Source: Antedon mediterranea
Lineage: Eukaryota > Echinodermata > Crinoidea > Comatulida > Antedonidae
Assembly (NCBI RefSeq): GCF_964355755.1
Contig: NC_092672.1
Location: forward strand, 33,414,501-33,478,500
Direction of reading: 5' to 3'
Length of the DNA: 64,000 nucleotides
Part shown: positions 3,421 through 44,700 of the stretch, in pieces
Layout: each line of letters opens with the position of its first letter
How positions within the stretch are numbered: the stretch's first letter is position 1
Made by a program: the position numbers and the translations under genes
Notes under the pieces: model-generated
Seen by the model: the letters and a program-made list of their open reading frames with translations, nothing else
What the model was told of the DNA's origin: nothing
Database searches by the model: none

Positions 3421-3999
3421 ACAGATATTAGCTTGCTTAAAAACATAATGAAATTTATGATATAAACAATCAATCCATCTCTTTTAAAAAGCGTCTTCGT
3501 GGTTTTTTCTTTATCGTAAAATTTAAACCAAGAATCCTTTTCTAAGCTATACCGTACTAATTTATGTATATTTCGAATGTTTTAATGTTGTAGTTCGATG
3601 CAATTATTGTATATTATAGAATAGTCTCTGCTTTTTTCTTGAATATACAGTAGTAGCTGCTGAATCTTATTGGCCTGTAATTTAGTATTCCGATCAACAA
3701 ACACATTTGCTTTCATTGGGGCCTCCAAGGCTTGGTAATTGCATTTAAGGCTGCTCATGTTCTGGGACCCCTTAAGCCTTGGCTTTCTGTAATTAGCCAG
3801 TGTGTGCTCATAGCGACCGTTATGCCATAGTTTCACCGATATACCAAAATCTTATATGAATAAATATATTTGCAATTTAGAGTTCTACATTTCTTGCTTG
3901 TATTCAATATAAACACAATGTAATATTATTATTATTATACAAAGAATGAATTATGTAAGATAAAGAGGATAAAATATTCAGTTGAAAGATGACTGTCAT

Positions 4000-4765
4000 A
4001 TTTATCTGTCTGATCACAGTTTATAGAGTCAATAACGTTCCCATGAATATGTAAATCGATATTTATTTGTTTGCTATAGAAAATAAAGTTTGTTCATCAA
4101 ACTTAATTAATTTACAATTAGCTTTGTAAGACAAGTTGTTCAACTACAGTATATCACACTCGGCACGGTGACAGATTGTCTGAAACTGAGGGCGGTATAT
4201 TCGTAAATTTGTATGTGTATTGTTTGTTTTATCTTTATACTGGGTGACCTCTTCAGTCAAAGACTGATCTCCCAGAGGGCCCAGTTGGTGATCAGTGGCT
4301 GTGATGTACTAATACACCGGGGTAACCCCCTACTCGTCTCGAAAGATGTACTAGGTTCTTTAAAGTGCACACGAGCAAGTTGTGTACACTGGACCTACGG
4401 TTTATAGTCCTTATCCGAGAAGACTCGTTCTACCACCAGAACCATGGAGTGAGTGAGCCTCGAACCCCTGCCGATGTTATGGCTACGTGATTACGGTTCC
4501 ACTGTCTTAACCGCTCGGCCACTCACTCACTCGTATGGTTGATACGTATTTCGTTGTCATATTTATCGGTCGGAACAACAAAGTTTATAGAGTCAATAAC
4601 GTCTCCATGAATTTGTAAATCAATATTTAAATGTTTGCGATAGAAAAGGACGTTAATTTAATTAAATTTACAATAAACTTTGTACGATAAGTTGTTTAAC
4701 TATATCACACTTGACACGGTGACAGCTTGTCTGAAACTGAGGGCGGTATATTAGTAAATATTTAC
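4000..4765. repeat. Duplicated upstream block, gene 1
   Basis: Two tandem copies (about 4010-4215 and 4560-4765, separated by the SINE) of a unit with GAGTCAATAACGT, ATGTAAATCAATATTTATTT and ACGGTGACAGATTGTCTGAA. The same unit is found at 34860-35130, 52380-52550 and 60520-60860. Confidence 0.65.
4222..4533 (-). mobile_element. tRNA-derived SINE in the gene 1 upstream region
   Basis: The right end read on the minus strand has a tRNA head (GTGGCCGAGCGGTTAAGAC as box A, GGGGTTCGAGGC as box B), followed by a body shared with 16715-16940. In the paralogous gene 2 upstream DNA (near 35010) the flanks are contiguous (TATGTGTATGGTTGATACG), so the SINE arrived after duplication. Confidence 0.7.
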
Positions 4766-37842: not shown

Positions 37843-38708
37843 TTAAATGTTTTCGTCACTAGTTTCAAATGCTGGATTTTGAACGTCACAGGTACTAACG
37901 TTATTTCGTTGAGCTGTCCTGGTCGTCGATAACGTTGGCATGGTTAGTGCACTGTTGCTGCTGTCGTTAGTTGCTCTATGTAAACGATGTTGCGGTGAAT
38001 AAGTTGTGTAACGTTTCTTTAAATCTTTAAATTCTTTCTGTCTGAACGTGAACAAGTAGAATATTGCGACTCCCTGGAAAGAGTTAAACATGCAGAACAA
38101 TATTACAAACACGTGATCAGCTTTGCTCTCAAAAGACATAAATCCAAAAACCCATGTCAGGCCTAAGAGCAAAGATATAGCGATGGCGTTGAAGACCCGT
38201 TTCTTTTTCTCTTCTAGAGTTGAATCTTTTTTCAGCATTGCGTTAGATCGCGAGCAGTATAAACTTTTCAGAACCAATACAAATATAATAGCGTTAAACA
38301 CGATGGCGATTGCGATTGGAATAAGAACAGCGTAGATAAAGATATCGAATTCCATTGTGTTGAGATAGCAACTGTAATACAAAATAAATATAAATATTTG
38401 CTAGTATCCATAAGAAAAAGAGCATAGGAAAATTAGACTAATTGTCACAAAAATGCCAATTGTCAGATAAAGATCAATTGTCAAATAAAGACCAATTGTC
38501 ACATAGCGACCAATATTTTTATACAGAAAAATTGTCACATAAAGACCAATTGACATTGTAATGATTTTTACCTAATTTTTGAGTGATTAAGATACGAAAT
38601 GATGAAAAATTGAATAAGAAACAATATATTACTGTACTTACAAGTCTTTGTTTTCATAGAACGATACATCTATGGTTAGTAGAACTATCGGCGGTATGCA
38701 CGGGAGCC
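37843..38708 (-). other. Gene 3 loop 2 and TM5-TM7 exons with complete tail
   Basis: Exon 38708-38642 (LPCIPPIVLLTIDVSFYENKD) and exon 38371-37843. After TM7 ([20 protein letters not shown]) comes an 80-90-residue Ser/Thr/Asn-rich cytoplasmic tail ending ETSDENI, absent from gene 2. Confidence 0.9.
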
Positions 38709-41700
38709 CTAAACAAGATAAACGACAAATGTATTAAACATATAATATATCATATGGGCGGCTGTTGGGGCCAAACTAACAAATGCCAGTAAATGATTGT
38801 CCTATACACGATACAAAAAGGGCAAGCGTAAATGAAGAAAGGACAAGCTCAAACGCGGAAAGGACAAGAGAAAATGCGGAAAGGACAAACGCGAAAAGGA
38901 CAAATGTAAACGCGCACGGAAAGGACAAACGCGGAAAAGACCAACTCAAACGCCGAAAGGACAAACGCGAAAAGGACAAATGTAAACGCGCACGGAAAGG
39001 ACAAACGCGGAAAAGACCAACTCAAACGCCGAAAGGACAAACGCGAAAAGGACAAATGCAAACGCGCGCGGAAATGACAAACGCGGAAAAGACCAACTCA
39101 AACGCCGAAAGGACAAACGCGAAAAGGACAAATGCAAACGCGCGCGGAAATGACAAACGCGGAAAAGACCAACTCAAACGCGGAAAGGACAAACGCGAAA
39201 AGGACAAATGCAAACGCGCACGGAAAGGACAAACGCGGAAAAGACCAACTCAAACGCCGAAAGGACAAACGCGAAAAGGACAAATGCAAACGCGCACGGA
39301 AAGGACAAACGCGGAAAAGACCAACTCAAACGCCGAAAGGACAAACGCGAAAAGGACAAATGCAAACGCGCACGGAAAGGACAAACGCGGAAAAGACCAA
39401 CTCAAACGCCGAAAGGACAAACGCGAAAAGGACAAATGCAAACGCGCACGGAAAGGACAAACGCGGAAGACCAACTCAAACGCCGAAAGGAGCAATGCAC
39501 ACCCGAAAAGGACCAACTGAAGCGCGGAAAGGACAAACGTCGTAAACGTGCAACAAATCACAACGAAATGACAAATCAGTCAATCTTATAATTCCTTATT
39601 TTTAATTGTCACTGACCAAATCTCTAAAGGCAGGCATACACAGTCATACATTTGTCTGTCATACACATCATACAATGTATGATCAGACAAAATCTGATCG
39701 TGTATGCCTAAATCAGACTTTGTCTGATTGCCATTTTATGTGTCTGTCAGTGTCTGATGAGAGTAGAACAATGCTCTACTCATAATACATGTATTATGAA
39801 TGTCTGAAGACAATATTCACTATTGACCAATCAGAGCACAGGGATTTTGACAGACTATTATTTATTTTTGCAAGATCAAGATGGTTGAGCGTGAGGATTT
39901 TATTGACACTGACAATTTGATTGATCTCTTTGAAGAGAATCCATGTTTATGGGATGTCAAATCCCATGAATATCACAATAAAACTCTCAAGACGGCCACC
40001 TACAGTAAAATTGCTGAACGGTTGGAATCAGAAGGTATGTTTAAAGCTAGGCCTAGGCCTAGGTAGGCCTATACTATAGGCCTGGCCCTCTAGGATAGGC
40101 CTAGGGCCTAGGTAGGCCTAGCTAGGCTAGAACTAAATTTTAAAGCCTGTCAGAAGTTCTTCAGTCCACTTAAAAGCAAACGAAACCAAAGTGTAAGGCT
40201 ATCCTAGCCTTGGCCAAAATGCTTATTGTTCTTACCCAATTCAGCCAATATTATTTTTATAAAAAGCAGTAGGGGCCCCTAGTAGGCCTAGGCCTAGGCC
40301 TAGTCTCTAGAGCAGAGGCTAGGCCTAGCTTAGTGAGTAAATTATAGGAGAAGTAAAAAACAAATTTAACAAAACAAACTATTATTTTTACTATTTGTAT
40401 AGGCAATATCTTTATTTTTCTTCTAATGTTTTGCCAAAATATTTATATTGTAATATTTAAAAAAAACTCTAGGCCTAGTACTGTATTACTAAATGCAATT
40501 CATACAGTATTTAACAATAAGTCTACATACAATGTAATAATGTATTCATTGCATATTCAGTTTAAAGTATTGAAATCATAAAAAAAATCATTGTTATTTA
40601 AGTATAATCATTACTTATTTACAGTATTTGACATCAAAATTGTTTTTAAATTTTAGTGGACCTAATTAAACGAAAATGGAACAATATAAGAAGCCAATAC
40701 AGACGAGAAAGAATGAAAGAGAGGGTAAGAAAGAGTGGTAGTGGGACAAGTGAGAGATACAAAAGTCGGTGGAGATTTATGGATAGGCTTGTTTTTTTAA
40801 ACGATAGCCTGTCCTCAAGAAAAACAATTTGTAATATGGAGGTAAGCTATTGAGTAATATATAACAGGATCCGTTTATCTTAAAATTATAGCCTAATGTC
40901 GCCACACATATAGCATCTATATCATTTGCCACTGCCATGGTATCTGACCCTCTGAGTTGAAGTAATTGCAGAATCTGTCTCTGACATCTTTGGCATCGTT
41001 GCTGTAAAAGTTGCTACCCTGTGGAGCCAAAGGTATCATTTCTCCTGCTTTAGGCTCCTGTCGCCATTGCCCTTCATGCACCTCATGCGTTATCCTGTCC
41101 TCCACATCTGTATAGCCATATGGTGTATAAACGTTTCTATTAGCACTTTGACCCCTCAGGAGGTTGTGAAGCGCACAGGCTGCCAGCACAATCTTCTCAA
41201 CAGATTCTGGTTGTAGATTAACTGGCTTGAGAAAGATTCTGAAACGATTACACAGAATTCCAAAAGCATTCTCCACAATTCTTCGTGCCCTGCTCAAACG
41301 ATAATTGAATATCCGCTTTTCTTCAGTAAGGCCTCTGGAGCTGTAGGGTTTCATCAGGTACTTCTTTAATGGGAATGCTTCGTCTGCAACCACAACATAT
41401 GGCATAGATATACCATCTTCAAAGAGAGGTCTGGCTTCAGGGATATTCAGCAGATTTTTATCTAAAGCATCTGAAAGCGTTGAATTTTTGTACACACCCC
41501 CATCAGAAACTCTTCCATTGCACCCAACATCAATATAAGAAAACTTATAATCTGCATCTACCAATGCAAGTAAAACAATGCTGAAGCTGTTCTTGTAGTT
41601 GAAATAGTAAGAACCACTATTATTCGGCGCAGATACTACAACATGCTTGCCATCCAAAGCCCCAATGCAATTATCAAAATTCCATCGCGTCGCAAACTCA

Positions 41701-44700
41701 TGACTTATCTTTTGCCACTCATCTTCTGTATTTGGGACCTGCAAGATTAATGAAGTAAAACTTTATAGCCATGAATCAAATATTTTAACTCATATAATAA
41801 TATCTATTTTTTAGACACCACTTGAAGATGCTGATTGTATGCTTGATGACATGGAGGAAGAATCAGCAACAGAAGATAAAGAAAATATAGATATTGCAGA
41901 AACATCATTCTCTACAAAGCGACCCCTTAAAAAATCAAAATTAAACAAAAAAAGTGAGGTTGATGAGCAGAAGCTTCTGGAAAAGGCCATCACTTGCTTG
42001 GATATGGCTACAAACAAACCGGCTGCAAAAGATGATCCAGATATAAATTATGCAAATTACATTGTAGATGAACTGAAAGCGATTAAAGATCCAAAACTAA
42101 AATTAATCACCAAACACAAAATAAATTGCCTTTTGTTTGAAGCTCAAAATGATTCACTTACTATGGACATTTTTTAAATAAATTTTTAATCAATCAATCA
42201 ATATATATCTCACCTTAAGATACTTGTCTGCTAAAACGTCATAAATAGCCTTGCATGTTTCCGGAACAATTTTACCAATTGTCTGGGCAGGAATTCTGTA
42301 TGTATACTCCAAACTTTTATATGAATCTCCTATAAGAAAAACAGTTTTACAACCTTTATTAATGACAAAGTTTCAATCCAGTACCAATGTGGGCAACATT
42401 TGAGTAATTTTCATGCTTGAGAAAATAAATATTTCTAATGTACAAATTCAATCTTTAATATACTTTAAAACATAATAAATATACTATAAAATTAACTAAA
42501 ATCTAAAAAAATGTCAGATTATAATGATCCCTGGTGATTATCGACTGGTAATATAATATATTGTAGTTAAGTAGTATTGTATTGGTAAAGATAATTTATA
42601 TTGTAAATGTAATATATCATAATCAATTGATTAATAAATATTGAGTGCAGTGTTTGCATTGATTGTATTGACTTTTACTAGTCTGTATAGGCCTAGAACT
42701 CAAGTAGTAGTACTTACTAGGCCTAGTAATCAATTAGTTAATTTATATAAAGTGATTCAACGAAAAAAATAACTAACCGGTTGCCAAGAATCTTAGAGTA
42801 ACAGCTAATCTTTCCTTGTGATGAATTGCCTCTCTCATCGTAGTGTTTTGCTTGCTTATCAATGGAGCCACTAAATTTGCAAGCTCATCAAAGGTGGCCT
42901 TATCCATGCGCAGGAAGTTTTTAAAATCGTTTTGATTTTCTAAACACAATTCTTTAACTAAAGTATGGTAAGCGCCTAAATGTTGCCTCCTGGCAATCCA
43001 TGTCCGCACCCATACGTTGCGTTTCCGCCGTCTTTGTTTTCTCTGTTTTCGTAAAATTAAAGAAATTATGAGGCCACAAGCAGCCAGATGTTGACTATTG
43101 TCTACCATTTTGTTACTATGCATAGTCATGTATGACAGACAAATGTATGTGTGTGTATGTGACAATGTATGATCAGATTTTGTCTGATCATACATTGTAT
43201 GATGTGTATGACAGACAAATGTATGACTGTGTATGCCTGCCTTAAGACTTACCCCAAGCAAAGATCAAGGAAAACCACAGCAACTTCGAGGTATTAGCGT
43301 TGAAAACTTTCACAAATAACAAGTACATATTGACCGCTTCTACGGATGTCCATGCAACAGACGTCAACAGAAAGTAATGTAACAATACAGCTATTGTTGT
43401 ACAAGCTACAGTTCCTGGAGTTGCGGTATCAATGCCACATATGAATGTGAGATACAGACAAGTTAGTGAGATGGAAAGGTTTAACAGTATTTTCTGAGGT
43501 TGACGTTTGCGAAGAGTTCTGTTGAAAAAAGTATACGAATAGACATTATGAACTAACTTTAAAAAATGTATGTGAATTAAGACTTTCAACTTGTATCATC
43601 TGTTACAGACTGAATGTTTCCACGTTATCGTCATTTATCCATGCATTTACAGAAATATGGATGCTTTCACATGGCGCCCGGATTCGGTTCTGCGCCCTGA
43701 ATCCTGGCATGATGTGAAAGCAGCTTAAGGTTTGTATTGTATATTGTAATGTTGATGAACGGTGTACTGTAACTCACTTTATTGATAGGCTAACAACTAT
43801 TGTCACCAGTAGGCAAAATATCGATACTCCACAACCTACATACGTCACTATGTTCAAAAACAATTCGAAACCTTTCGACACTTTGTTATGAAACTGAAAA
43901 ATTAAAAAAACATTTTGAAAAATGAACGTTCTTTTATATATAAAAAAGATAAAACATTTTTCATTTGAGTGTTTTTATAAATTTGATTGGTTGTACAAAG
44001 TAATTGAAGAACGGATTAAGAAATACAATAAGAGTGGAACGTACAAATAAAACAGCTAAATTTGTAAGATGTGTACAGTTACATGTAATACTGCCCTCAG
44101 TGTCCATATAAACGCGTGTACATCCCTTTTCTGACCAATCACCAAATCCATTAAGAGTTGTGTTCCAAAACACACAAGTAGCATTTTGATTTCCGTAAGC
44201 CTGCTGCTCCAATGAAAAATAACAAAATAAATATGTCATAATGTTTTTTGCCAATTGTGACCCAGGTCTTTATGTGAATACAGTTTTTAATTACACCATA
44301 GATTTTTAAAAAAACATAATGGTCGATTTTGACGTCTGTTTTCCATTTATTGAATTTATTCGCGCGAACGCAATGTTTCGCAGAGAAGATAATCCGTCGC
44401 TTGTCTGCTGAGCATTTCGATTCATATGAGTACTCATGAACGACGTTATGACTTATTTCCTGAGCTCTGATTGTTTGCGGCATTTTTTTCGCTTCGCAAA
44501 AAGTAGAAAGAATTCGAACTACCAACTAGAATTCGTCGCAGAAAGAAATTTGGAGGATAGAAAACACGAATACGGATGCGTAAGCTGACGCTTTCGATTC
44601 GCGCGAACAAATTCGCCTAGTGGGTGGAGAACAGGAAAATTGTTCACGCGAATCAAATATTGAGGGCTATATGTGGGCAAAGACGAACCAGGCGTAATAA

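Follow-up and report, generated by a model that had tools for sequence, protein, structure and literature searches.

A PIF/Harbinger transposon of Antedon mediterranea whose two predicted genes hold their last coding exons in each other's introns

Can the two genes of a single transposon be intertwined on opposite strands in such a way that each carries the last coding exon of the other inside an intron? A locus of Antedon mediterranea raises this question; it lies in the stretch of 64,000 nucleotides that was analyzed as a whole (the window). According to the original prediction this locus holds a pair of Harbinger genes whose terminal exons interlock, and the coordinates, splice sites and Pfam domains are in agreement with it (Table 1). 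Judged from its sequence, the 3,615-bp element is a PIF/Harbinger transposon with two intact predicted genes. It combines a DDE_Tnp_4 transposase, a MADF gene, terminal inverted repeats and a 3-bp duplication, TWA being the usual target of PIF/Harbinger elements. The inverted-repeat pair matches at 99% over 77 nt when flanking bases are counted in, and short derivatives consisting of the repeats only exist for this element.

Table 1. Coordinates of the element, its two predicted genes and the spacers between their exons (positions in the window).
Feature	Coordinates	Strand	Basis
PIF/Harbinger element	39628-43242		TIR pair and TSD; ends read from sequence
Left terminal inverted repeat (TIR), 72 nt	39628-39699		inverted-repeat comparison
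Right terminal inverted repeat (TIR), 72 nt	43171-43242		inverted-repeat comparison
Target site duplication (TSD), TAA	39625-39627 and 43243-43245		flanks both element ends
MADF exon 1	39881-40034	+	GT-AG, ends in phase 1
MADF intron 1	40035-40656	+	GT-AG, phases consistent
MADF exon 2, finishes MADF domain	40657-40841	+	PF10545, residues 13-99
MADF intron 2	40842-41814	+	GT-AG, phases consistent
MADF exon 3, last coding, within transposase intron 2	41815-42177	+	homologous exons in L005-L007, L014
Transposase exon 1; in-frame ATGs 43129, 43123, 43108	42778-43129	-	gene model
Transposase intron 1	42330-42777	-	GT-AG, phases consistent
Transposase exon 2	42214-42329	-	gene model
Transposase intron 2	41739-42213	-	GT-AG, phases consistent
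Transposase exon 3, DDE catalytic, within MADF intron 2	40917-41738	-	PF13359
75-nt spacer, MADF 5' splice site, adjoins transposase stop	40842-40916		gene models
76-nt spacer, two back-to-back 3' splice sites, one per gene	41739-41814		gene models
36-nt spacer, MADF poly(A) signal and transposase 5' splice site	42178-42213		gene models, signal scan

The exon and intron coordinates given for both genes were confirmed. As claimed, frames are open and phases agree across the four GT-AG introns, and the predicted spliced products of 233 aa (MADF) and 429 aa (transposase) contain no internal stop. The genes have no coding base in common, each last coding exon lying wholly within intron 2 of the other gene: transposase exon 3 fills 822 of the 973 nt of its host intron, and MADF exon 3 fills 363 of 475 nt. 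The counterpart of the 76-nt spacer measures 94 nt at locus L006 and 161 nt at L014 as modeled, the MADF acceptor of L014 being ambiguous. In Pfam searches the transposase matches the full-length profile of DDE_Tnp_4 (E 3.6e-34) and the MADF protein matches its profile N-terminally (E 1.2e-21). The stretches GALDGKH, VADEAFP and RARRIVENAFG of the transposase contain the D, D and E that we take to be the catalytic triad, and these residues are retained, by eye, in the proteins of 10 relatives. For the MADF protein no BESS match was obtained from Pfam at E up to 1; the last exon of L019, the counterpart of MADF exon 3, matches BESS (PF02944) at 8.5e-5, and a profile comparison between the two groups of MADF last exons gave a probability of 16% with an E of 0.0015.

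The choice of splice junctions was checked by ranking the best four junctions for each intron. Those used in the window rank first in all introns but transposase intron 2, where a rival acceptor within the catalytic exon (15.3 versus 14.9) was rejected, as it would remove catalytic sequence kept in relatives. Junctions of relatives were partly picked by homology rather than by score. Third-ranked junctions are used in transposase intron 2 of L006 and of L011; ties occur in MADF intron 1 of L006, transposase intron 2 of L014 and MADF intron 2 of L014 (the exon 3 acceptor, tied among several), and the start of MADF exon 3 in L018 is not top-ranked. When the window's MADF protein was searched against 3,362 open frames taken from the first loci, its last exon hit frames in L005 (3.5e-5), L006 (8.5e-6), L007 (3.7e-5) and L014 (9.9e-5). 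Chance is no sensible rival, since the exons match those of other families one by one and in the same order.

Substitutions were also counted by codon position. Among three copies of the window family, which may share history, 25 of 40 changes in the MADF exons fall at the third codon position (p 1.5e-4), and for exon 3 alone 13 of 23 do so (p 0.019). The transposase exons of this family show no significant third-position excess (12, 12 and 18 changes in the three copies taken together, p 0.13; 9, 9 and 11 when only exon 3 is counted). For transposase exons of other families the excess is found between L006 and L039 (44 of 77, p 1.5e-5) and between L014 and L038 (35 of 63, p 2.4e-4). Sister-family MADF exons gave no significant excess in any of nine comparisons (e.g., 6 of 12, p 0.18; 28 of 66, p 0.077), and in exon 3 of the pair L014-L038 position 1 changes most (12, 4, 4).

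How far does this layout extend? Two sister families of the same genome, with transposases ~50-57% identical, share with the window the transposase intron at which the exons interlock (phase 0, alignment column 166), as seen in L005/L006 and L014; for L007 the interlock was judged from exon order. L014 and L015, both complete and each with TTA duplications, share 99.3% identity across the element and do not match outside it; a single substitution, in a third codon position, separates their coding exons, versus 10 non-coding substitutions. Near-identity, distinct flanks and intact exons thus indicate recent copying of an interlocked element whose two genes were both unbroken; these copies could have been mobilized by the proteins of another copy. 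A third lineage interlocks via other introns, and so, less surely, does a fourth. The weakest interlocked case is the L020 family, whose last MADF exon has a profile E of 0.71 in L021 and L022 and 5.7 in L020, and whose exons 3 and 4 yielded no convincing in-phase donor. It was counted as interlocked because 10 of the 11 genome matches of this exon are located upstream of a transposase match and on the strand opposite to it, the eleventh being without a listed transposase nearby; the ten are related copies and include the query's own locus and one match at E 0.06 with two stops.

The two genes are convergent in all 13 family groups where both were found, including eight related groups in which no interlock was detected. 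Genes were paired by nearness rather than by terminal repeats in L013, L017, L018, L023-L026 and L029. Terminal repeats were scanned for in 21 loci, the window counted and L023, L025, L026 and L029 not among them, and turned up in 12. The scan gave nothing convincing in L005, L007, L011, L031, L013, L017, L018, L024 and L032, the far end of L005 being outside the examined stretch and that of L007 beyond its right edge. L011 and L031 have the same transposase introns as the window; a search with MADF proteins found no MADF gene in them, and a 33-aa match upstream of the transposase (E 0.10) was discarded as chance.

The interlocked layout probably arose more than once, given that the third lineage, and less surely the fourth, interlock through other introns. 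The transposase tree groups the window with L014, L005/L006 and L011/L031 (90/87; the window's place is not starred), the MADF tree groups the window with L006 and L014 (95/95), and the main groups agree between both trees. Parsimony on the transposase tree gives three changes, a count that fits three gains and one gain plus two losses alike. A single origin before the split of the two transposase clades, followed by two losses, is in line with this count and with the presence, by inspection, of MADF intron 1 in all MADF models and of intron 2 in most. Yet the transposase introns that house MADF exons occupy three different alignment columns (166, 122 and 80), and L019 has its transposase exon within MADF intron 1 instead of intron 2, which makes a single origin unlikely. 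One possible route to the layout would be tandem duplication of a block running from the transposase last exon to the MADF last exon(s), after which the first copy of the transposase exon and the last copy of the MADF exon would be lost. Such duplication and loss could yield every geometry seen, and both proteins could be made at every intermediate. To look for remnants, 12 gap or intron stretches and three whole loci were searched with 24 transposase and 9 MADF proteins (E <0.5, transposase matches within the three whole loci filtered out), and nothing convincing was returned.

Recurrence in three lineages through different introns could also be read as a selected Harbinger strategy, in which the interlock serves as governor or lock, convergent antisense transcription coupling transposase and MADF output and the intertwined exons making the pair inseparable; we regard this as quite unlikely. 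A rival reading, hostage linkage, states that the interlock is kept since it blocks one-gene derivatives and gene exchange between families. It draws on the concurring trees and on the same-family copy L003, where one lost block removed MADF exon 2 together with nearly all of transposase exon 3. However, the agreement between trees extends to the non-interlocked L016, L018, L008 and L013 and therefore does not need the interlock, and a single deletion is no test, so that we consider this reading decidedly improbable.

The original prediction of antisense over more than 1 kb holds if both genes are transcribed, as their primary transcripts would then overlap from 40917 to ~42200 at least (~1.3 kb). 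Double-stranded RNA that restricts co-expression, or a forced splicing of both transcripts, was suggested there as a possible consequence. AATAAA starts on the final base of the MADF stop codon (42177), and over five interlocked elements 4 of the 10 gene ends have a canonical poly(A) signal at the stop or within 25 nt of it (P 0.011 versus stop-like triplets of the same elements), which points to limited overlap between mature mRNAs in some cases. The end of the window's MADF gene is one of these four; that of its transposase gene is not: no canonical transposase signal is present in the spacer 40842-40916, and the first one lies ~500 nt past the stop, hence the transposase 3' UTR may run antisense across MADF exon 2. 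Under another rival reading the interlock is selected: the two antisense pre-mRNAs would pair or collide, and either gene, when fully expressed, would depress the other, capping transposition as a form of self-limitation or feeding small-RNA silencing. The extent of the primary-transcript overlap and the occurrence of the interlock in diverged families with probable repeated origin are consistent with this. On the other hand, eight convergent family groups of the same genome lack a detected interlock, which is therefore not required, and poly(A) signals at the stop limit mature-RNA overlap at those four ends. We consider such selection very improbable, and a part played by double-stranded RNA, or a regulatory function of any kind, is speculative.

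Concerning the original proposal that non-interlocked family members would mark a rearranged copy, the same-family copies other than the window's, the sole intact one seen, are broken or partial (a fourth, L004, retains little beyond the left end). That the interlock is a one-off accident or misassembly of a family with another normal layout is nevertheless scarcely credible and was ruled out, as the three informative copies at other loci are all collinear over the parts they retain and the sister-family loci L005-L007 and L014/L015 have identical order and the same transposase intron. Since copies and distant relatives in the same genome have it, the interlock is a heritable layout rather than a single-copy accident.

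Taken together, the gene models and their relatives make it quite probable that the window holds a complete two-gene PIF/Harbinger transposon with compact convergent genes, reciprocally interlocked and resolved by splicing. Each predicted gene begins near one terminal repeat and bears the other's last coding exon, antisense, in its own last intron; both genes would be transcribed, and splicing of each pre-mRNA would take out the antisense exon. The interlock itself may be a by-product of compacting a convergent pair. Once established, such a layout could hardly revert, since deletions in the central part of the element tend to strike both genes. In the zebrafish element Harbinger3_DR a MADF/Myb-like protein is reported to bind near the ends and to act with the transposase (PMC9710019), and by analogy the MADF protein of the present element would bind near its ends and cooperate with its transposase.

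In the parts consulted of PMC9710019 and PMC9179366, zebrafish Harbinger3_DR, insect PIF and teleost Harbingers likewise combine a DDE_Tnp_4 gene and a MADF/Myb-like gene with TIRs, a 3-bp duplication and repeat-only derivatives; interlocked exons are not described there, and the present element has each last exon in an intron of the other gene. The domesticated insect pairs APLG/APM and LPLG2/LPM2 are similar in that transposase-derived and MADF genes adjoin and stem from one insertion; as far as this source was consulted, insect PIF pairs are adjacent genes, one of them a single dicistronic transcript, and no TIRs or TSDs were found for the Anopheles pairs, in contrast to the interlocked genes, TIRs and TSDs of our element (PMC9710019). 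No description of interlocked Harbinger exons was found in the openly licensed literature, as far as consulted, including PMC9179366, PMC9710019, PMC5741667 and PMC11893794, the founding Harbinger papers being outside this scope. The present case shows that a selfish element may have its two genes intertwined on opposite strands, yet be copied and kept over long divergence. It offers a small natural system to study how convergent transcripts that are antisense to one another are spliced, and whether overlap serves transposons to limit themselves; gene callers or consensus builders that bar opposite-strand overlap would miss part of each gene. Host gene pairs on opposite strands can be nested or interleaved, with exons of one in introns of the other. 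Unlike in nested host pairs, the interlock described here is reciprocal, is contained within a 3.6-kb transposon and is copied along with the element.

The two genes of the window element are convergent and interlocked, the last coding exon of each lying inside an intron of its opposite-strand partner. Transposase exon 3 takes up 822 nt of the 973-nt MADF intron 2, while MADF exon 3 fills 363 nt of the 475-nt transposase intron 2, and the packed exons are separated by spacers of 75, 76 and 36 nt. All four introns are GT-AG, every phase is consistent and neither product contains an internal stop. Pfam identifies MADF_DNA_bdg in the MADF protein (1.2e-21) and DDE_Tnp_4 in the transposase (3.6e-34). 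The first introns of both genes (40035-40656 and 42330-42777) carry several short GGCCTA-rich repeats, those of the left one matching many other genomic places. The transposon is flanked on both sides by minus-strand exons (37843-38400 and 43242-44269) of an adhesion-GPCR-like gene, recognised by 7tm_2 and GPS matches, and is apparently intronic. Immediately to its left stands a 76-bp tandem array (38850-39491; 8.5 copies, 97% matches).

Features of the window element (window positions)
Feature	Position	Strand	Remarks
PIF/Harbinger element	39628-43242		3,615 bp; 72-nt inverted repeats at ends, TAA on either flank
MADF gene exons	39881-40034, 40657-40841, 41815-42177	+	product 233 aa
Transposase gene exons	43129 (or 43123, 43108)-42778, 42329-42214, 41738-40917	-	429 aa counting from first ATG
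76-nt spacer	41739-41814		two acceptors back to back, one per strand
36-nt spacer			transposase donor and MADF poly(A) signal (first base = last base of stop codon)

The genome search covered 354 Mb in 18 contigs and its copy counts are lower bounds; among the matches listed, the window family has at least four longer copies elsewhere and several short repeat-only pieces. In three of these copies (L001, L002, L003) the parts that each retains stand in the same order as in the window, L003 having lost MADF exon 2 and almost all of transposase exon 3. The fourth, L004, is hardly more than the left end and is uninformative about the interlock. The copies differ from the window at about 2-4% of aligned bases (gaps excluded) and have exon gaps or internal stops; the readable splice dinucleotides are conserved at 7/8, 3/4 and 5/6 sites in L001, L002 and L003, respectively. 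Short places that match both family ends without a gene match, e.g., G000 C8:25067799-25067943, are MITE-like derivatives. Changes at codon positions 1, 2 and 3, pooled over L001-L003, number 20, 19 and 43. The MADF exons account for this third-position excess (8, 7, 25; p 1.5e-4); for the transposase exons it is not significant (12, 12, 18; p 0.13), both tests pooling three copies that possibly share history.

Around transposase matches, 28 further loci (16 + 12) and seven extra copies were fetched. Two sets of related loci, L005-L007 (transposase exon 3 53-54% identical to the window) and L014/L015 (transposase 57% identical over the best part), have the exon order of the window: transposase 1 and 2, MADF 3, transposase 3, MADF 2 and 1. 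MADF exon 1 of L005 falls outside the fetched stretch, and L007 has frame-breaking gaps in transposase exon 2 and MADF exon 3. The transposase intron that encloses the MADF exon sits at one alignment column, with one phase, in all of the window, L005, L006 and L014. L011 has an intron at that same column and phase, yet a MADF gene was looked for and not found there, nor at L031. Both transposases have two introns placed as in the window family (positions demonstrated for L011), intron 2 of L011 measuring merely 306 nt. L014 and L015 are 99.3% identical across the element and do not match past its ends, both with TTA duplications, and they differ by one substitution in coding exons (at a third position) versus 10 elsewhere. 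An interlocked element has thus recently been copied with both genes unbroken; its mobilisation could have relied on proteins from another copy.

Among diverged copies of sister families, transposase exons show a third-position excess (44/77, p 1.5e-5; 35/63, p 2.4e-4). The MADF exons of these families reach no significant excess in any of the nine comparisons tested, and in MADF exon 3 of L014 versus the copy L038 position 1 is the most changed. PF10545 was matched in L006, L014, L019 and L020, and the C-terminal BESS motif in L019. The last MADF exon of the window matches L006 and L014 at 1.3e-8 and 5.8e-8 with only seven sequences searched, and at 8.5e-6 and 9.9e-5 among 3,362 frames. Such cross-family homology adds support for the predicted MADF exons.

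Other geometries occur as well. At L019, MADF intron 1 encloses the main exon of the transposase (3474-4386), and the sole transposase intron encloses MADF exons 2 and 3; the copies L033-L035 of this family retain 6/6 splice sites, but with frame-breaking gaps. In the weaker case, L020/L021, the exons of the MADF domain are found past the transposase, whose intron contains a BESS-like last exon. Convergent genes in which interlock was not detected are found in L008/L009/L012, L010/L013, L016/L017, L018, L023/L025, L024, L026 and L029, the Myb gene of the last four groups being judged from recognisable exons and nearness. Thus, all 13 groups in which both genes could be found are convergent, and five of them are interlocked; no partner gene was found at L011/L031, L027, L028, L030 and L032. 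Beside the L018 gene, a second, inverted MADF exon 2 fragment (L018:5500-5655, +; 93% over 29 aa) represents a partial exon duplication.

In the transposase tree (24 rows), L014, L005/L006 and L011/L031 form a group with the window (90/87, not starred), and L016 and L018 one with L019 (100/99); L020/L021 join L032 next to a group made up of L008, L010, L012 and L013 (95/95). Corresponding groups appear in the unrooted MADF tree (nine rows; L006 and L020 on long branches): window, L006 and L014 (95/95); L019, L016 and L018 (90/94); L008, L013 and L020 (83/85). Over 15 scored rows the interlock requires at least three state changes, which fits three gains or one gain and two losses equally. Separate origins are favoured because the MADF-holding transposase introns differ between the interlocked lineages (columns 166, 122 and 80), and the interlock probably arose repeatedly.

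From the sequence we infer how such a pair would work. Both genes begin near opposite element ends and would be transcribed toward one another; the polymerase on each would have to traverse the partner's last exon, which splicing would then excise. The mature RNAs would need to overlap only slightly where a poly(A) signal directly follows the stop. In five interlocked elements, 4 of the 10 gene ends have a canonical hexamer at the stop or no more than 25 nt from it (P 0.011, against a baseline of stop-like triplets within the same elements), namely those of the window MADF gene, both L014 genes and the L019 transposase. The window transposase is not among them, and its transcript may extend across MADF exon 2. 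As a proposed origin, a block duplication followed by complementary loss would yield the correct orientation in each geometry through functional intermediates; none of the remnant exons expected from it was found.

Two-gene Harbingers are well known (PMC9710019, PMC9179366). In the openly available papers searched, we found no description of interlocked exons in them. The kind of element is already known, and what appears to be new is its architecture, the persistence of that architecture and its probable repeated origin.
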